From positions 1-22,306 of IMG/VR virus record IMGVR_UViG_3300035698_034663: 22,306 nt of DNA; one strand, given 5' to 3'. The stretch comes from a virus. Shown piece after piece: positions 1,735 to 20,935 of this stretch. The notes beneath the pieces are model-generated. The model was not told the DNA's origin and made no database searches. It saw only the letters and a list, made by a program, of their open reading frames with translations. Each line of letters begins with the position of its first letter. The first letter of the stretch is position 1. A program made the position numbers and the translations under genes.

Positions 1735-4056
1735 TTAGAACCCTAGCCCTACATCTCCAGCCTTAGCCCTATCAAGGAGCTTCTTAGCATTCTTATAGGT
1801 TGCTTTAGCTACCTGAATTTGTTCCTGAATTGCGGCATTATCTAGTAACTTTTCAAAGTGAGTAGTTATAATTTCCGCAGTAACTACAGTTCCTGTATCC
1901 TGAACCATAGACTTAATCTTTAACCTATCCTCATCAGATAACTCTGATACATCAAAATGCTCTCCGTATTCTTGCTTTATGAATTCGATAATCTTTAAAG
2001 CTTCTTCTCTATGCTCTTTGATAAAGTTACGCATCGTGCTTAACCAAACTTCATCAACGCCCTTTCGCAACACGTCACCTGTAGCGCCAGCGAATAGTTT
2101 ACTCCAAGATTCATACTGCTCGTCAAGAAAACCTTCTCCGCAGGGAAGAAACTTTTCAGTGTAATGCTTAAGGATAGTCTTCGAGTCTTCTACTTCAAGC
2201 TCTCCAACTACCAGAACCTTAGCAAAACGCCTTAGCATAGGTGTCGGGATTCTCTTAGGATGATTTGTTGCTCCCCAGATTGAAATTCCTGGATACGCAA
2301 CTACTCCATCCATAAGGTTTTGAAATTCAAGCGACAAATCTACTTTTGTTCCAGGAGTAGAATCCTTATTTAGAACCATATCAATCTCATCAATAAGAAT
2401 GTGAACGGGACGTCCAGATGACTTATTGAGCTTTACAGCTTCATCAAACAGTCGCTTAGGATTCTTCTGAGCTTCACCAGACCAGCAAGTTAAGAAGTCA
2501 GAGCCAACTGCGAAGATTGATATACTATCATTACTCGCACCTAATGCTCTCATAATCTGCGTCTTACCACATCCGCCAGGGCCAACAAGAAGCATGTTAT
2601 TCTTGTCTGTACTTCCAGATGGAGAAGTGGCTAGAAATAATGGTGCCCACTGCTTCGCTTCATCCATTCCAGAAATAAAGTCTCGGACTTCATCAAACCC
2701 ACTTCCCCAAATATTATCAAGTTTAGCGTAAGGCTTTTCGCCAGGAATTACCTCAATTGCTCCTGGGGCTTCGCCAGTAAACATATTTCCTGTACCAATT
2801 CTACATACATAAAAACTATTTTCTTTTACGAAGAAATCATGCTCTTCTACTTTCAGTTCAAGGATATCCTGAGCAATAGAATCAAGTCCGTCTTTTGCGA
2901 TTAAGGATTCGGCCACGCTTTGAATAGACTTATTTCTATGGTCCATAGCAAACCTTTCAACTTTAGAGAAAGCTCTCTCAGGGGCGCGTTGAACAATTTG
3001 AGTTAAGTCAAGGCTATCAATAAGCTCTTCGAATTCTTCATGAGCTTGCTTGGGATTTAAGCTTAAAAGTTTCCATACGGGTTCTCCTAATGATGTCTTA
3101 AACTTCTTAACGGTAGAAAGAATAGATTCCATTATGGATACTGAAATTTTACTCCACTTAATTAGTTCTTGAGCAGGATCAATAATCCAATCCCAAATCT
3201 TACTATTTCTACAACTTGAAATCATCGCGTTTGCGCGATGAATTGTGTAGGGGCTAAGCTCGTCTTTTGAAACTCCAGATTCAACTTCCCCAACCCTATC
3301 GATATTATCCCATACAAGTATAGCAATGTCAGTTAGGGTTACTGATGGATCCTGATTATAATCCACAATAACCACACCATCATCAGAGTGTCGCTTTGAT
3401 AGCCTCTGGTAGTATGCTTCAAAATTTCTTGATTGAGCGATGAGATAATTCTCATAAAGCTTTGGGGCCTGCTCAAGCAAATTTAGACCTTGAGTGAAAG
3501 CAATGCTTGCACTTCGATTAACGGATTGCTCTAGAGCTAAACTTTGGAGAGTATCCTTCCCTGCCTCTGAAGTTAGATTAATTAAAGCCTTAGTTCTAGA
3601 TTCACCTAAAACATCCTCGTTTTCATTAACAACACTTTCCCATCCACTAATGGAATCGTTTAACGAAACCATCTTAGCATTGGACATAAGATCCATGCCT
3701 TGAACGATTACATCATAGATTGCCGCAATATTGGCATAATGGCTGTATAGCAATGCTAATACATCTACATTATAATTTGCAGCATTATCTTCTGCTTGCT
3801 GATCAAGCGCATCAAAAACCTTTTTAGAATCCTTGCGCCGCCTTGTTAAACTATCTCCGGTAACTTGCTTGCGCAGCTCTTTAGCCATTTTAGCTGCTTC
3901 ATTATAAGCATTAAGGCTCTTCTTCATATCAGGAAGCATTTCCCTTAGAGCATTAACTTCCTCAGAGCGTGTAGCTTTAATTAAATTAGCGTATCTAATT
4001 GGGTTATCTGATGCTGATTGATTTAGTATCAATGAGGCTAGTTCTTGCGTATCCAT
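1735..4056 (-). CDS. Large AAA+ ATPase
   Basis: This is the largest gene here (773 residues). The C-terminal third is an AAA+ module: Walker A G-P-G-G-C-G-K-T at about 491-498, Walker B H-I-L-I-D-E-I-D at about 552-559, a sensor-1 like G-A-T-N at about 594, and R-R-F at about 610 as an arginine-finger candidate. This resembles classic substrate-remodelling AAA proteins more than clamp loaders or helicases. The first roughly 480 residues are mostly predicted helical and charged, with no motif I recognise; they probably bind the substrate or a partner. The last 60 residues look like a coiled coil. Start ATG at 4056 has AGGAGA about 6 bases upstream. It stands apart from the downstream TilS operon, which has its own promoter. 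The target is unknown; disassembly of a host or virion complex is plausible inference only. Confidence 0.85.
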   Translation of the reverse strand: MDTQELASLILNQSASDNPIRYANLIKATRSEEVNALREMLPDMKKSLNAYNEAAKMAKELRKQVTGDSLTRRRKDSKKVFDALDQQAEDNAANYNVDVLALLYSHYANIAAIYDVIVQGMDLMSNAKMVSLNDSISGWESVVNENEDVLGESRTKALINLTSEAGKDTLQSLALEQSVNRSASIAFTQGLNLLEQAPKLYENYLIAQSRNFEAYYQRLSKRHSDDGVVIVDYNQDPSVTLTDIAILVWDNIDRVGEVESGVSKDELSPYTIHRANAMISSCRNSKIWDWIIDPAQELIKWSKISVSIMESILSTVKKFKTSLGEPVWKLLSLNPKQAHEEFEELIDSLDLTQIVQRAPERAFSKVERFAMDHRNKSIQSVAESLIAKDGLDSIAQDILELKVEEHDFFVKENSFYVCRIGTGNMFTGEAPGAIEVIPGEKPYAKLDNIWGSGFDEVRDFISGMDEAKQWAPLFLATSPSGSTDKNNMLLVGPGGCGKTQIMRALGASNDSISIFAVGSDFLTCWSGEAQKNPKRLFDEAVKLNKSSGRPVHILIDEIDMVLNKDSTPGTKVDLSLEFQNLMDGVVAYPGISIWGATNHPKRIPTPMLRRFAKVLVVGELEVEDSKTILKHYTEKFLPCGEGFLDEQYESWSKLFAGATGDVLRKGVDEVWLSTMRNFIKEHREEALKIIEFIKQEYGEHFDVSELSDEDRLKIKSMVQDTGTVVTAEIITTHFEKLLDNAAIQEQIQVAKATYKNAKKLLDRAKAGDVGLGF

Positions 4057-4337: not shown

Positions 4338-4386
4338 AAATAAAAAAATAAACGCCATCGTTGAATTCTTGACTCAACGATGGCGT
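4338..4386 (-). terminator. Rho-independent terminator
   Basis: A perfect 13-bp stem (ACGCCATCGTTGA at 4352-4364 pairing with 4374-4386) encloses a 9-base loop. On the minus strand it is followed by a T-rich run at 4350-4341. It lies just past the stop of the gene at 4395, so it ends that transcript before the AAA+ ATPase unit. This is the clearest terminator in the window. Confidence 0.9.
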
Positions 4387-4732: not shown

Positions 4733-4780
4733 ATTAACCTTAGCTCTTTTGAAAAAATTCGCAAAGGTTTTTTTAAACTT
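4733..4780 (-). promoter_or_regulatory. Recurrent phage promoter motif, copy 2
   Basis: The minus strand reads CCTTTGCGAATTTT, then TTCAAAAGAGCTAAG, then TTAATT in the -10 position. It matches copies 1, 3 and 4 across the core at 4742-4767. It is about 85 bases upstream of the membrane-protein gene at 4395-4649. Confidence 0.65.
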
Positions 4781-5213: not shown

Positions 5214-5570
5214 CTAATCTATTTGAATAAACCAGCAAACCATGCAATTTTTATCCGTTATAATTGTAAATGCACAATCGCAATCTTTATGACAGAAAAC
5301 TCTAATTACGCATCCTATAAAATCTTTACCTATATATTTCTGATCAGCCCAAGCCATTTCACTCTGTAAATTTGAAGAAAAGCTATAATTATAATATATG
5401 TAGTCTTGAATCCAAGAATGATCATCATCTTTTTTTATAGCGGCTTTCTCAACTCTTGACCATTTACTTTTGCCAAAAGAAGTAACATTATGTTCCAGCA
5501 ACTCTGATTTTATTATGGGCGTTTTATTTATAATGCTTTCTATAAAAGTTTTACATTCATCTGAATTCAT
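5214..5570 (-). CDS. Unknown protein, paralogue of the gene at 5579
   Basis: An 118-residue protein whose C-terminal third aligns by eye with the next gene upstream: I-R-V-F-C-H-K-D-C-D-C-A-F here against V-R-I-F-I-H-R-D-V-G-A-D-F there, then T-D-K-N followed by a Trp-Phe ending (C-W-F-I-Q-I-D versus G-W-F-F-A-V-K). The N-terminal parts are both acidic and Lys-rich but diverged. No known domain is seen. AAGGA lies 5 bases before the ATG at 5570. The pair probably arose by tandem duplication; function unknown. Confidence 0.65.
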   Translation of the reverse strand: MNSDECKTFIESIINKTPIIKSELLEHNVTSFGKSKWSRVEKAAIKKDDDHSWIQDYIYYNYSFSSNLQSEMAWADQKYIGKDFIGCVIRVFCHKDCDCAFTIITDKNCMVCWFIQID

Positions 5571-5578
5571 ATCATTCC

Positions 5579-5983
5579 TTACTTGACTGCAAAAAACCAG
5601 CCCACGAAATTTTTATCTGTTGGACTTGTAAATATGTAAAAGTCTGCGCCAACATCTCTATGTATAAAGATTCTAACGTTTGTGCTTGTTAGATCACCGG
5701 ACATATACTTTTTAGTAAAAGAAAAAGCGTCAGCATTGCTTTCTTTATCAAGAATTATATCAGCTATAAAATCAAAGTGTTCTTTATTTTCAACTACACT
5801 TTTGTAATCAAGAGACCAATATTTGGACTCTATTTTGTTAGCATATTTTTCACCAAGTTCTAAAGCTATAATTTCTTTATTTTTATTGGTGGTTTCACTA
5901 AAAGTTTTTTGAATATAATCAAGGCACTCTTTATTGTTCAAGTAAAACCACCACCTGTATTTATCTAGAATAAAAAGTTGCAT
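5579..5983 (-). CDS. Unknown protein, paralogue of the gene at 5214
   Basis: A 134-residue protein with the same C-terminal block as its neighbour (H-R-D-x-G-A-D-F, T-D-K-N-F-V-G-W-F-F). The start is uncertain: the ATG at 5983 has no Shine-Dalgarno sequence, only TTTTATTTTAAA upstream, directly after the structured non-coding segment. Either initiation is leaderless or unusual, or that upstream RNA affects translation. No TM segment or signal peptide is evident. Confidence 0.6.
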   Translation of the reverse strand: MQLFILDKYRWWFYLNNKECLDYIQKTFSETTNKNKEIIALELGEKYANKIESKYWSLDYKSVVENKEHFDFIADIILDKESNADAFSFTKKYMSGDLTSTNVRIFIHRDVGADFYIFTSPTDKNFVGWFFAVK

Positions 5984-5987
5984 TTTA

Positions 5988-6217
5988 AAATAAAAGACGA
6001 GTATATGGGGGACGTTTAAAGTCGCTGATCACTGCGGACTCTTTAAACACAGGAAGATGATCAAGTCTTCATAGTCTGTAATCGCTTCCCCTACATTTAT
6101 CTTCATATACCGCTTTCCCAGAGACGTTAGCTATTGTTTCCCATCTACGGCTTGGCTGACCCGAAGTCAATGGCTGCTATTAACAGCACCAGGAGCCCTC
6201 TCTGGTGGTAGACATAT
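5988..6217 (-). ncRNA. Candidate structured non-coding RNA
   Basis: No ORF covers this stretch, and its GC content (40-50 percent by line count) exceeds its AT-rich neighbours. On the minus strand, GTCTAC (near 6210) can pair with GTAGAT (near 6147) around three hairpins: CACCAG/CTGGTG, GCTG/CAGC, and TGAC/GTCA. Further on, GTATATG pairs with CATATAC, and GGGGA with TCCCC. They enclose GAAGA/TCTTC and GTTTAAA/TTTAAAC hairpins whose loops both hold TGATCA, a self-complementary hexamer that could form a kissing pair. A T-rich run (TCGTCTTTTATTTT) follows. I recognise no known family: tmRNA, RNase P and hammerhead motifs were looked for and not found. The strand is inferred from neighbours and the T run. 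Confidence 0.5.
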
Positions 6218-6811
6218 TCATTCTGACCACGTACCTATTACGTGACTCTTAGAGCTTATACGCTCTATAAAGCCTTCTGTGCGACTACTCTCATTTACAG
6301 AGATAACTTTATGCTTTCTACTTCCTTGATATGAGCAGCTTTCTGTTTTATTGTTTTGACAATACCAAATAGATTCTTGTGATATATACGCATAAGGAGT
6401 TTTTCCTTGCCAAGTCACTATACTGTAAATTTCGAAATGAGTCCAGGAAATATTCTGATAAACGTAACACTGCTCCTCTTCCATAACCCATCCGGCTTTT
6501 GATTGCTTAGGAAAAAGCTTCTTACATCCTGTATAACCTAGTGTCGCTATAAAGTAAGTATGCTTTTCTTTATCAGTTTGAACTAAAGTTCCTTCATTAC
6601 ATAGATTTGAAAATGAATTGCATAAATCGGAAATATGCTTTTCAGCTTTCCTTATTGGTTCAAAATTAATACTCAGCGATGTCTTCTTAGATCCATCAGC
6701 TAAGCTAACATTAATTTTCATCTTTGTTGATTGATTATCTAAATCAATAACTCCCGCATAAGCTTGGGATATAAATAACGAAAAAGCTAGTAGAAAATTT
6801 CTAACAAACAA
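6218..6811 (-). CDS. Secreted cysteine-containing protein, copy B of a tandem pair
   Basis: A 197-residue protein with a clear signal peptide (F-V-R-N-F-L-L-A-F-S-L-F-I-S-Q-A-Y-A, likely cut before G-V-I-D-L). The mature part has eight cysteines in positions shared with its neighbour: L-C-N-S-F-S-N-L-C, G-C-K-K-L-F-P, E-Q-C-Y-V, W-Y-C and S-C-S-Y. Conserved blocks are S-F-S-N-L-C, A-G-W, T-P-Y-A and W-x-C. It is likely exported to the periplasm and disulfide-bonded. The start is a TTG directly abutting the TAA of copy A, with GAAGAA as a weak ribosome site. No known family is recognised; a role at the host envelope is inference. Confidence 0.7.
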   Translation of the reverse strand: MFVRNFLLAFSLFISQAYAGVIDLDNQSTKMKINVSLADGSKKTSLSINFEPIRKAEKHISDLCNSFSNLCNEGTLVQTDKEKHTYFIATLGYTGCKKLFPKQSKAGWVMEEEQCYVYQNISWTHFEIYSIVTWQGKTPYAYISQESIWYCQNNKTESCSYQGSRKHKVISVNESSRTEGFIERISSKSHVIGTWSE

Positions 6812-7432
6812 TTATTCTTCTTGCCATCGCGCTTGTATAGTTTTCGAATCAAATGTTTTTGTGAGGGTTCCTGAAGACTTCGAATCTTCAATGAGGCTTA
6901 CAACGGAGTGATTTATATTCCCATGATATACGCAGCTATCTTGCTTTACAGAGAAACATTTCCACATTCCTTTTTGCTTAATGATTGCGTATGGTGTAGA
7001 GCCCGTGATCGAAAAATCATTTCCTATCGTTTTTGCTGAAGTAAACTCCTGATTTACGATGCAGGTTTGAACCTCATAATTCCAGCCAGGCTTAACGTCA
7101 TCAGGATAATACTTATCGCACTTACCCATATTAAGATTGTACTTAACTTTAATCCTTTTATATTCGGGCCCGCCGCTAATCATTAGCCCAGAGAAACATA
7201 GGTTACTAAATGAATCGCAATAATCCGAGTAGCTTCCACCAGATACTTCTTGTGATAGATTTGAATTAATTCCTTCGTAAAAGGAGCCGTTCGATTCTAA
7301 AATAATAATCTTGTAAGTATTAACTGGAGTATCAATCTTTATTACTCCACAAAATGCGTCAACCGGAATTATCATTAATGCAGCTATCGCTGTGGCGATC
7401 AGTGCTATTAAAATTGTTTTTTTTAATGTCAT
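6812..7432 (-). CDS. Secreted cysteine-containing protein, copy A of a tandem pair
   Basis: A 206-residue protein beginning M-T-L-K-K-T-I-L-I-A-L-I-A-T-A-I-A-A-L-M, a signal peptide with likely cleavage near V-D-A-F. The mature protein shares its plan with copy B: D-S-F-S-N-L-C, C-D-K-Y-Y-P, P-G-W, T-C-I-V-N-Q, S-T-P-Y-A-I, M-W-K-C, D-S-C-V-Y-H-G and a final W. The shared cysteine pattern shows common descent, but identity is low, so the duplication is old or both genes evolve quickly. ATG at 7432 has only a weak GGAT upstream. The tRNA-CAU gene lies just upstream on the same strand. Function unknown; export to the periplasm is likely. Confidence 0.7.
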   Translation of the reverse strand: MTLKKTILIALIATAIAALMIIPVDAFCGVIKIDTPVNTYKIIILESNGSFYEGINSNLSQEVSGGSYSDYCDSFSNLCFSGLMISGGPEYKRIKVKYNLNMGKCDKYYPDDVKPGWNYEVQTCIVNQEFTSAKTIGNDFSITGSTPYAIIKQKGMWKCFSVKQDSCVYHGNINHSVVSLIEDSKSSGTLTKTFDSKTIQARWQEE

Positions 7433-7452: not shown

Positions 7453-7526
7453 TAGGGCTTCTCGGATTTGAACCGAGGACAAACGGTGTATGAGACCGCT
7501 GCTCTAACCAACTGTGCTAAAACCCT
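7453..7526 (-). tRNA. tRNA with anticodon CAU (Ile2 or elongator Met)
   Basis: The minus strand folds as a full cloverleaf: acceptor AGGGTTT with AAGCCCT, TA at 8-9, D stem GCAC/GAGC (one mismatch), anticodon stem GCGGT/ACCGT with loop CTCATAC, T stem CTCGG/CCGAG with loop TTCAAAT, discriminator A. CCA is not encoded. The GGG/CCC anticodon stem and 1-72 mismatch of initiators are absent, so it is an elongator-type tRNA. Because a TilS-like enzyme is encoded at 931-1554, tRNA-Ile2 (read with lysidine as AUA) is my preferred reading; Met cannot be excluded by eye. Confidence 0.9.
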
Positions 7527-12489: not shown

Positions 12490-13233
12490 TTAACTTCTAA
12501 GCCAGAATTCTCCATGAAGGCCGCAGCCAAAGAATTCCGTACCCTCTATTTTTTGTCTTTGTAAAATATGATGATGACCATAATACCAAGCTTTTGGTTT
12601 ATGTGCTGAATGTTTTACTACATTCTCAAGCATATTTGGTGTAGTAGAAGAATTTCTTCTTACTCGAAATAAATCAATTCGAAGAGGAACGTCATGAGTT
12701 ACAATTACTTCAGGCTTTCTGTGTTCGTAATTTGATTGAAATAAATTAAACTCATTACGGTTAGGCTGTTCTTTATCCCACCATGATAAATTGGGTTCTC
12801 TTAGATGAACATCGGTTGACTCTGCACCACCAAGAAATAAGTGGGACTTTCCATTTAAAGACAAAACTGAACCTCTTGCTGCCCAGAATACGCCGGATCC
12901 CGGTTCTACCTCAACTTTATCAGGGTAACCTTGTTGCTCGCATAAATCATAGTAAGCATTCCAATTATCATGATTGCCGCCACAAGTTATAATTTCAACT
13001 TTCCATGTTCCGCGTCGAGCCCTTTCTTTAATCCAAAGGTTAAGCTCTGAAGTTTTCCATATAGGAAGCTCTCCGTTAACGCGATACTTTTTAATAGCAT
13101 TCTTTGTTGGAAAGAATAGTCCGAAATCTCCAACTTGAACAATGTGAGAGTAACCTTTAGATTCCGCCTTCATTTCTAGCGATCCTAGATCGTTATACCT
13201 TCCATGAAGATCGCCTACATACATTATTGTCAT
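12490..13233 (-). CDS. Metallophosphoesterase
   Basis: A calcineurin-type phosphoesterase of 247 residues with all metal-site blocks in order: G-D-L-H-G (7-11), G-D-F-G (35-38), G-G-N-H-D-N (85-90), T-H-D (179-181) and Y-G-H-H-H (218-222). The G-D-F-G block and G-H-H-H ending differ from the PPP-type protein at 18800, so the two are separate subfamilies. Substrates of this family include phosphoproteins, nucleotides and nucleic-acid ends; which applies here is unknown. AGGATGTGTT directly precedes the ATG at 13233. Confidence 0.88.
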   Translation of the reverse strand: MTIMYVGDLHGRYNDLGSLEMKAESKGYSHIVQVGDFGLFFPTKNAIKKYRVNGELPIWKTSELNLWIKERARRGTWKVEIITCGGNHDNWNAYYDLCEQQGYPDKVEVEPGSGVFWAARGSVLSLNGKSHLFLGGAESTDVHLREPNLSWWDKEQPNRNEFNLFQSNYEHRKPEVIVTHDVPLRIDLFRVRRNSSTTPNMLENVVKHSAHKPKAWYYGHHHILQRQKIEGTEFFGCGLHGEFWLRS

Positions 13234-13397
13234 AACACATCCTAGTATAAGTCATTGGGCTTTTTTAAATTTAATGGATTTACTAAATGACGCTGGCTAT
13301 CGGTTACAATTAGTTGCCAACCAAATCTCTTTTCTTTAATATCACAATCGCTTTTGTACGAAAAAAACTAAGCAGTTGTGCCGAGGAGTAAAACGAA

Positions 13398-13417
13398 TTC
13401 TGTTATTTTTCACAGAA
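13398..13417 (-). terminator. Weak terminator-like hairpin
   Basis: TTCTGT at 13398-13403 pairs with ACAGAA at 13412-13417 around an 8-base A/T loop. On the minus strand it is followed by TTCGTTTTA. It lies about 40 bases past the tiny gene at 13457. The rest of 13234-13456 shows no gene; a TATAGTATAA at about 13449-13440 could be a -10 element toward the phosphoesterase. Confidence 0.3.
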
Positions 13418-13456
13418 CGCCTTTATACCAACCCAAAACTTATACTATAACAAAAT

Positions 13457-13552
13457 TTATTTTTTATTAATAAAACCCTCTAGAAAACTAACGATATCTA
13501 AAAGATAATAACCTATAGCAATTCCTATTGCTAGTGTAATTAACTCCAACAT
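13457..13552 (-). CDS. Tiny membrane peptide, 31 residues
   Basis: Begins M-L-E-L-I-T-L-A-I-G-I-A-I-G-Y-Y-L-L-D-I and ends F-I-N-K-K. One hydrophobic segment covers most of it, with a positively charged end. GGAG lies 9 bases upstream, inside the last codons of the preceding tiny gene, and the two frames overlap only by a base or so, which supports coupled translation. Unknown function. Confidence 0.5.
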   Translation of the reverse strand: MLELITLAIGIAIGYYLLDIVSFLEGFINKK

Positions 13553-13553
13553 C

Positions 13554-13703
13554 TTAGATTACTCCTACGAGAAGGAGGACTAGAAGCACAATCATGATTG
13601 TTACTAGTGCGCCACCTGGAGCGAGAAACGCCCTACCTTGACTAACACCTCCAGTTAAAACTAAAATCAATAAAACAATTAACAGTAAAGTTACTAACGA
13701 CAT
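13554..13703 (-). CDS. Small two-pass membrane protein, DUF3309-like
   Basis: A 49-residue protein: M-S-L-V-T-L-L-L-I-V-L-L-I-L-V-L-T-G-G-V, a short loop with R-A-F-L-A-P-G-G, then a second hydrophobic run ending L-L-L-V-G-V-I. Two hydrophobic helices joined by a G/P-rich loop resemble DUF3309 small membrane proteins; this is recognition by pattern only. AGGAGA stands 5 bases before the ATG, one of the best ribosome sites in the window, so the gene is probably real despite its size. It starts just downstream of tRNA-Gln. Confidence 0.65.
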   Translation of the reverse strand: MSLVTLLLIVLLILVLTGGVSQGRAFLAPGGALVTIMIVLLVLLLVGVI

Positions 13704-13724
13704 TTTTCTCCTATAGTTATAAAA

Positions 13725-13796
13725 TAGGGGTAGTAGGATTTGAACCTACGCATACTGGGATCAAAACCCAGGACCTTACCGCTTGGCTATACCCCA
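13725..13796 (-). tRNA. tRNA-Gln(TTG)
   Basis: Acceptor TGGGGTA with TACCCCT (1-72 is a U-U mismatch; weak 1-72 pairs are normal for tRNA-Gln), anticodon stem CTGGG/CCCAG with loop TTTTGAT giving TTG, T stem GTAGG/CCTAC with loop TTCAAAT, discriminator A. CCA is not encoded. It reads CAA, and by wobble CAG. Confidence 0.93.
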
Positions 13797-13804
13797 ATAA
13801 ATAA

Positions 13805-14376: not shown

Positions 14377-14430
14377 CCTATATACTCTTAGCTCTTTTGA
14401 GAAAAATCGCAAAGATTTTTAATGAAAACT
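14377..14430 (-). promoter_or_regulatory. Recurrent phage promoter motif, copy 3
   Basis: Minus strand TCTTTGCGATTTTT then CTCAAAAGAGCTAAGAG then TATATA at the -10 position (core 14390-14415). Upstream TTTTCATTAAAAA also matches copy 1 (TTTTCATAAAAAA). It points toward tRNA-Leu and the small membrane-gene cluster down to tRNA-Gln. Confidence 0.72.
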
Positions 14431-16399: not shown

Positions 16400-16446
16400 A
16401 TTACTCTTAGCTCTTTTGAAAAATTTCGCAAAGATATTTTAAAAAA
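16400..16446 (-). promoter_or_regulatory. Recurrent phage promoter motif, copy 4
   Basis: Minus strand ATCTTTGCGAAATTTT then TCAAAAGAGCTAAGAG then GTAATT at the -10 position (core 16409-16435). The gene at 16089-16376 starts about 25 bases past the -10, the shortest and clearest promoter-to-gene distance of the four copies. Confidence 0.72.
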
Positions 16447-17842: not shown

Positions 17843-17882
17843 CCTAACACCTTTTTTTACAATTTATTATTAAGACTTTTAC

Positions 17883-18345
17883 TTAATATTTTTTTTCCAG
17901 AAGAGCTAGCTCATTAAGATCAGAAATTGTCGCCCTAAGAGGAACTCCATGCTGCAGCAAATCTGTTACAAGCCACCTTATTTGACCATCCGAAGTATCC
18001 ATATTAACATAATTAGTCCCGCCGCCGGTATAAGAATCATATTTATAGTTGCACCAATTCTAGTGCACATCTTTTATATATACAATACCTAGTTGATCAA
18101 CACGCCATCTAGACCCCGCAAGTGGCGCGGGATTAAAAAGTGACCGCCATTTGCGCTTGATTGAATACCATAAAATCCATAACATCGCGAACCTCAGAAC
18201 AAAAAGAGTATGTATTACTTGATTTTTTTTATAAAGATCTTCTATATAACAGAATCCATATCCTCGACTTATAATTATCTAAACTCTTAGCTACACCATC
18301 AGCATCATTAGATTCTTTTTCGGAAGCCTCTTTCTAATTAATCAT
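17883..18345 (-). pseudogene. Decayed unknown gene with several frame breaks and amber codons
   Basis: No single ORF spans this stretch, yet coding-like pieces follow one another on the minus strand: K-E-A-S-E-K-E-S-N-D-A-D-G-V-A-K-S-L-D-N; R-G-Y-G-F-C-Y-I-E-D-L-Y-K-K; S-N-T-Y-S-F-C-S-E-V-R-D-V-M-D-F; N-P-A-P-L-A-G-S-R-W-R-V-D-Q-L-G; and, after an in-frame TAG at 18062-18060, N-W-C-N-Y-K-Y-D-S-Y-T-G-G-G-T-N and onward to TAA at 17883. Frame changes fall near an A8 run (about 18230) and a T5 run (about 18138). A further TAG is the fourth codon after ATG at 18345. An intact ancestor would have about 150 residues. A shorter ORF (ATG 18185 with GAGG upstream) ends at the amber codon. Confidence 0.6.
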
Positions 18346-18353
18346 TTAATATA

Positions 18354-20122: not shown

Positions 20123-20935
20123 CTACTCCTTAAATGTTGAAGTGAAAGTTTCCCACGCAGTATCATTTGTTATTGAATTAAAGCTCATTAATTCAAACTG
20201 CTCTTTTACCCAATCCATATCAGGCTCGTGTGATAGATTTATAACTCCACTTAATGGAACATCGGCAAATCTAATCAAGCGCTTGTTTCTTTCAACTACA
20301 TCTCGCCTCTCTGGCTTTTCATCAAGCCATTTGTTCACTTCATCATCTGAACCTGACAATACTTTTATAGCAGTCTTTGGGCCAACTCTATGTATGCCTT
20401 TAATATTATCAGAGCTATCTCCAACCATAGACTTCCATAAAACATAATTGTAATCAGGATTAGGAACATAAGATTTCTTTATTGGATTATAAATCTTAAC
20501 GCCGTCGTTTTGATCATAAAGTTGAATAAAGTCAGTGTCAGCAGTGGCAACAATACACTCTTCATCTTTATAAATTGATGTTACTAACTTGCCAATTAAA
20601 TCATCGCCCTCATAATCGGGATGCTTAATTACATCGACTGGCATTTTTGATAGAATTTTGATAATTAAATCTTTTTGCTTTGTGAATTCTTCGTACTCCG
20701 CAACCTTAATAAGGTTCGTCGGATCTTTAATCCGATTACCTTTGTACTCTGGGTAGATATCATATCTAAACTTAGGATAACCTTCTAGTGCAAAGATAAT
20801 TTTATCAGGATTAATTAATTCCGTCATCGACCTTAAGCTTCTCATAAAGCTATACGTGGTTCCAAATTCTCCAGCCTGAAAACTATACCTTGCTCTATGC
20901 ATAAGATTATATCCGTCTAGAAAAAGAACCTTCAT
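20123..20935 (-). CDS. 5'-3' exonuclease / flap endonuclease (FEN family)
   Basis: FEN nucleases remove 5' flaps and RNA primers during replication. Residues seen (270 total): F-L-D7-G-Y-N at the start, R-Y-D-I-Y-P-E-Y-K-G-N-R (57-68, the arch-base block), Y-E-G-D-D (108-112), T-A-D-T-D-F (131-136) and G-D-S-S-D-N-I-K-G-I (172-181) followed by V-G-P-K-T-A, the helix-3-turn-helix. The metal-binding acidic set is therefore present. Length matches stand-alone phage enzymes such as T5 FEN or T4 RNase H, and lacks the polymerase domain of Pol I. GGAG lies 7 bases upstream of ATG at 20935. Its start is 11 bases from the start of the divergent endolysin gene. Confidence 0.92.
   Translation of the reverse strand: MKVLFLDGYNLMHRARYSFQAGEFGTTYSFMRSLRSMTELINPDKIIFALEGYPKFRYDIYPEYKGNRIKDPTNLIKVAEYEEFTKQKDLIIKILSKMPVDVIKHPDYEGDDLIGKLVTSIYKDEECIVATADTDFIQLYDQNDGVKIYNPIKKSYVPNPDYNYVLWKSMVGDSSDNIKGIHRVGPKTAIKVLSGSDDEVNKWLDEKPERRDVVERNKRLIRFADVPLSGVINLSHEPDMDWVKEQFELMSFNSITNDTAWETFTSTFKE

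Follow-up and report, generated by a model that had tools for sequence, protein, structure and literature searches.

A candidate P4-less HDV-like self-cleaving RNA with a folded insertion in L3, located between two genes of a phage operon

The ribozymes of HDV and CPEB3 combine a P1 of 6-7 bp, a P2 of ~7 bp and a P1.1 with a G.U pair beside the cut and a J4/2 containing the C and two A's, and they also possess a P4, together with a short L3 in which a U and a G are invariant (PMC3386971, PMC4908430). A short L3 is common to the known members of the HDV-like family, its U and G being part of the family signature, and a U/A combination in the L3 of a laboratory HDV ribozyme leads to a ~500-fold loss (PMC3386971). 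Minimal HDV-like ribozymes that do without P4 have been described, and the phage HDV-like ribozymes located away from tRNAs are mostly non-coding and in the sense orientation (PMC10879173). The ribozymes of silkmoth R2 retrotransposons are also built on an HDV-like core from which P4 is absent; other parts of these RNAs can be greatly enlarged, the enlargement being located in J1/2, with strong conservation of P1.1, P3 and L3 (PMC3774820).

Here, we describe a 96-nt candidate HDV-like self-cleaving RNA (positions 6118-6213, minus strand) with a predicted cut 5' of G6213. We estimate at roughly 0.5 the probability that the intergenic gap harboring it encodes a P4-less HDV-like self-cleaving variant with an insertion in L3, which would separate two messages of an operon. 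With the minimal HDV-like and theta ribozymes of gut phages (Kienbeck et al. 2024, PMC10879173), the candidate has in common its occurrence in a phage, the sense orientation, the non-coding location, a double pseudoknot devoid of P4 and a putative catalytic C in J4/2. Unlike them, it carries a 40-nt folded insertion in L3, it is not placed at the 3' end of a tRNA and its predicted cut follows a stop codon. Theta ribozymes cut at most 5 nt from a tRNA 3' end, whereas the nearest tRNA here (Met, 7453-7526) ends ~1.2 kb upstream of the candidate. The dimensions of P1 and P2, a possible P1.1, the G.U beside the predicted cut and the C and two A's of a putative J4/2 are shared with HDV and CPEB3, whereas P4 is absent and L3 is long. 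The L3 of the candidate spans 43 nt; the conserved U is present, and the position of the G facing it appears to be an A in the most natural reading. Because this defining feature of L3 was examined and is lacking, we do not file the candidate as an HDV-like ribozyme. It may nevertheless function in the manner of one, as a variant with an insertion in L3. The lack of P4 may leave space for a domain in L3, and this domain could assume the stabilising role of P4.

The window, which designates the whole 22,306-nt stretch analysed, is a 22.3 kb virus record whose genes are mostly on the minus strand, including those of a PP-loop ATPase (931-1554), an AAA ATPase (1735-4056), a metallophosphatase (12490-13233) and a 5'-3' exonuclease (20123-20935); its four tRNAs are all on the minus strand as well. 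The relatives found for the AAA protein all come from phage records measuring 63-395 kb, so the window is most likely a piece of a large phage genome. The gap lies between two minus-strand genes of unknown function, namely an upstream gene of 197 aa (6218-6811), whose stop codon (UGA) ends 4 nt ahead of the predicted cut, and a downstream gene of 120 aa (5579-5941). Two tandem pairs of paralogues surround the gap (6218-6811 with 6812-7432, and 5214-5570 with 5579-5941), displaying 30-32% identity and lacking Pfam or PHROGs matches, and the products of the 6218-6811/6812-7432 pair appear to be secreted and rich in cysteine.

According to the initial annotation, the downstream gene lacked a ribosome site. 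This stemmed from a start-codon error: its frame can be read from ATG 5983 (134 aa), but the alignment with the paralogue 5214-5570 begins at TTG 5941 (MNNKEC / MNSDEC) and AGGTGG is found just upstream, so that TTG 5941 is most likely the true start. The missing ribosome site hence vanishes, and the gap becomes larger than first stated, running from 5942 to 6217 (~275 bases). The absence of an ORF, as previously claimed, holds for ORFs of at least 50 aa on both strands across 5984-6217, and the short ORFs within the gap (15-33 aa) lack convincing ribosome sites. The gap is also richer in GC than its flanks, as had been noticed (0.46 vs ~0.27-0.34): a GC content as high is reached by 0.9% of the 220-base windows of the 22.3 kb, and it exceeds that of the other untranslated gaps without tRNAs.

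The helices listed in the initial annotation are present in the sequence, and its T-rich run was found on the minus strand at ~5994-5982, past the folded segment. The high foldability attributed to the segment did not extend to the whole: compared with shuffles, the folding energy of 5960-6240 is ordinary (z -0.94 on the plus strand, +0.61 on the minus strand), and 120-base windows of the gap region have unremarkable folding ranks among 740 windows. Low energies were restricted to a plus-strand sub-domain (5994-6114 or 5998-6112; z -2.9 to -3.1), whose ends were picked after the fact. The claim that the segment matches no RNA class was borne out for Rfam, the scan that had been suggested giving no match in the gap even at E <= 10, although the pseudoknot-free covariance models of Rfam 15 are weak for HDV-like folds; a tRNA/tmRNA search of the gap returned nothing either. 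As a statement on RNA classes in general, the claim is probably incomplete, because the half of the gap beside the upstream gene fits an HDV-like double pseudoknot. Overall, the evidence favours the interpretation as a non-coding, probably structured RNA segment. The stretch 6213-6143 was also read as a tRNA-like cloverleaf, an idea discarded owing to misfits in the T-arm and acceptor; RNase P, group I intron, SRP and 6S RNA were judged by eye and are without Rfam support.

Nested folding programs cannot display the HDV-like double pseudoknot, and the crossing helices of the candidate were found by reading the minus (coding) strand by hand, outside the domain with the TGATCA loops; they were absent from the initial annotation. 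The elements occur in the order P1, P2, P3, L3, P3', P1', J4/2, P2' of the nested double pseudoknot. P1 starts from the cut-site G and comprises 6 bp, within the 6-7 bp of the family (GUCUAC, 6208-6213, with GUAGAU, 6143-6148), and G6213-U6143 provides the G.U at the cut site. Following J1/2 (CA, 6207-6206), the 7-bp P2 crosses P1 (CCAGAGA, 6205-6199, with UCUCUGG, 6124-6118) and is separated by the single base G6198 from P3 (GGC, 6195-6197, with GCC, 6149-6151), the 3' strand of which runs straight into P1'. The GG that comes after P1' (6142-6141) and the CC at 6193-6192 constitute a P1.1 candidate identified from their letters. A 10-nt loop (6140-6131) occupies the place of P4 and leads to the CUAA of J4/2 (6127-6130), featuring the proposed catalytic cytosine C6130, after which two further bases, CG (6126-6125), precede P2'. 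These two bases and G6198 between P2 and P3 are extra to the family core and speak against membership.

L3 (6152-6194) opens with UCC (6194-6192) and ends with A6152. The minimum-energy fold of 6149-6197 is a three-way junction of ordinary stability (z -0.74), in which a UGG/CCA stem closes two hairpins (6187-6173 and 6170-6156); with this arrangement, the U is paired to an A while both C's bulge out and stay free for P1.1. The nested minimum-energy fold of the entire 6118-6213 segment (-24.9 kcal/mol) deviates from the pseudoknot.

The rarity of such a match was evaluated with a descriptor composed once the candidate was known: a P1 of 6-7 bp from G, a J1/2 of 1-6 nt, a P2 of 6-12 bp, 0-1 nt, a P3 of 3 bp, an L3 of 5-60 nt starting with a CC-type motif, P1' then GG, a loop of 2-30 nt, C-N-R-A, 0-2 nt and P2'. 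The candidate was the one site matched in the window. When the window was shuffled (10.7 Mb-strand), no match had C at the catalytic place, compared with 3-4 matches for each of the wrong letters. The region itself was shuffled 338,665 times, which gave 30 matches on either strand and a single one if the insertion in L3 had to be self-closing. Another shuffled phage, one of the relatives, produced 21 matches over the four catalytic letters in 25 Mb-strand, none of which, with any letter, combined a P2 of at least 7 bp with exclusively Watson-Crick pairs in P2 and P3. The real relatives, represented by seven whole records and two stretches (4.4 Mb-strand) and searched with a slightly wider descriptor, gave 4 matches with C, 4 with T, 3 with G and 2 with A, which is the background level. 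Because the descriptor is post hoc and several RNA classes were considered, all these counts exaggerate the rarity by an unknown factor, perhaps 10-50. A chance origin of the candidate match still appears unlikely from these comparisons, which do not by themselves prove a ribozyme.

Relatives of the AAA protein (1735-4056) were found in nine distant phage records, at 36-58% identity, and a scan of genome contigs added two distant AAA proteins; four other protein queries retrieved none. Neither RNA domain had a copy in the records of the relatives by blastn or single-sequence covariance model. DNA similarity searches of phages and plasmids gave only scattered short chance matches, the sites retrieved by two DNA-pattern scans of IMG/VR were all due to chance and lacked the fold, and no homologue of the RNA was found across the IMG/VR, phage, plasmid and GTDB searches. 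This absence is weak evidence, as the records nearest to this genome may be missing from the collections searched. In the closest AAA relative (58% identity; L005 9893-13441), the ATP-binding loop is interrupted by an apparent intein of ~400 residues (CVRGDTMI...VVPGAESFAANGMMNHN).

Past the ribozyme candidate, the minus strand continues with a second structured domain (6112-5995), after which come the U-rich run and the next gene's ribosome site. The initial annotation had placed TGATCA in both distal hairpin loops, and the two copies (6026 and 6058) indeed fall in hairpin loops, as UGAUCA, in the minimum-energy fold of the minus strand (5995-6112). Loop pairs capable of a 6-bp kiss arose in 4 of 4000 shuffles, and a kissing contact is possible according to the predicted fold. 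Either strand of this domain may be the functional one, because the plus strand folds more stably than the minus strand (5998-6112: z -3.10, with 0 of 200 shuffles as low, vs -1.11). This difference favours a plus-strand small RNA centred on 5998-6112 and its 12-bp hairpin; we regard it as highly improbable, given that the ends of the domain were chosen post hoc, that no promoter or terminator match was found beside the domain on the plus strand and that the minus strand carries nearly all genes and every tRNA.

Two further explanations concern the gap as a whole. It could encode a minus-strand leader or spacer RNA that is structured yet non-catalytic and would shield or time the translation of 5579-5941 or slow the decay of the polycistronic message, the resemblance to HDV being coincidental. 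A GC-rich non-coding island within an AT-rich genome, hairpin loops able to kiss and a strong ribosome site directly behind all suit such an RNA, but the joint presence of all the HDV-like core elements is left unexplained, and we consider this explanation unlikely. Alternatively, the gap may have no function at the RNA level and consist of acquired or decaying DNA between parts of the operon, with helices formed by chance. The ordinary overall folding energy and the failure to find a homologue are in line with this possibility, which we nonetheless judge quite unlikely: the GC content is above that of the other untranslated tRNA-free gaps, the pseudoknot match is rare in shuffles, and idle DNA is seldom kept in compact phage genomes.

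The self-cleaving variant is the reading that we prefer, and the location of the candidate supports it, on the sense strand, in non-coding DNA and 4 nt past a stop codon. As proposed, P1, P2, P3 and P1.1 would form in the cell during the synthesis of the polycistronic message, C6130 would serve as the general acid, and cleavage would occur before G6213, four bases past the upstream stop codon. The upstream mRNA would thereby be trimmed almost to its stop codon, and the downstream gene would gain a transcript of its own, beginning with a 5'-hydroxyl and ~270 nt of structured leader; the second domain (6112-5995) would come after the ribozyme on the same strand. While terminating at this codon, a ribosome would sit on the first bases of P1 and could thus delay cutting. 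The more specific version, an HDV-like ribozyme whose helical domain in the active-site L3 replaces P4 and with which the phage cuts its polycistronic mRNA past the stop codon, is tentative and, in our estimate, falls somewhat short of even odds.

Should the candidate be active, L3, regarded as the most constrained element of this ribozyme core, could host a folded domain, and descriptors based on a short L3 would overlook such ribozymes. The role of phage HDV-like ribozymes would then extend beyond tRNA trimming to the splitting of messages inside one operon, with the terminating ribosome as a possible competitor, and further ribozymes of this type might be hidden in phage intergenic regions.

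Elsewhere in the window, an element of 30-55 bases (TTTGCGAAATTTTTCAAAAGAGCTAAGAGTA) recurs on the minus strand at 14383-14413, 16402-16432, 4735-4765 and ~1600-1655, thus occupying four intergenic gaps that precede minus-strand genes or a tRNA. It shows at most 3 mismatches at three of these sites, none being expected by chance. It probably acts as a promoter specific to the phage or as another type of regulatory element. The clearest intrinsic terminator nearby is a perfect-looking 15-bp hairpin followed by a T run (4352-4386, minus strand; ACGCCATCGTTGAGTCAAGAATTCAACGATGGCGT TTATTTTTTT), which also has the most extreme folding score of the window. In the long gaps 17843-18353 and 13234-13804, short open frames of <50 aa are visible on the minus strand, for example an apparent frame with a LATISDLNELALLEKKY-like end at ~17884, and these two gaps probably contain unlisted small genes rather than RNAs.
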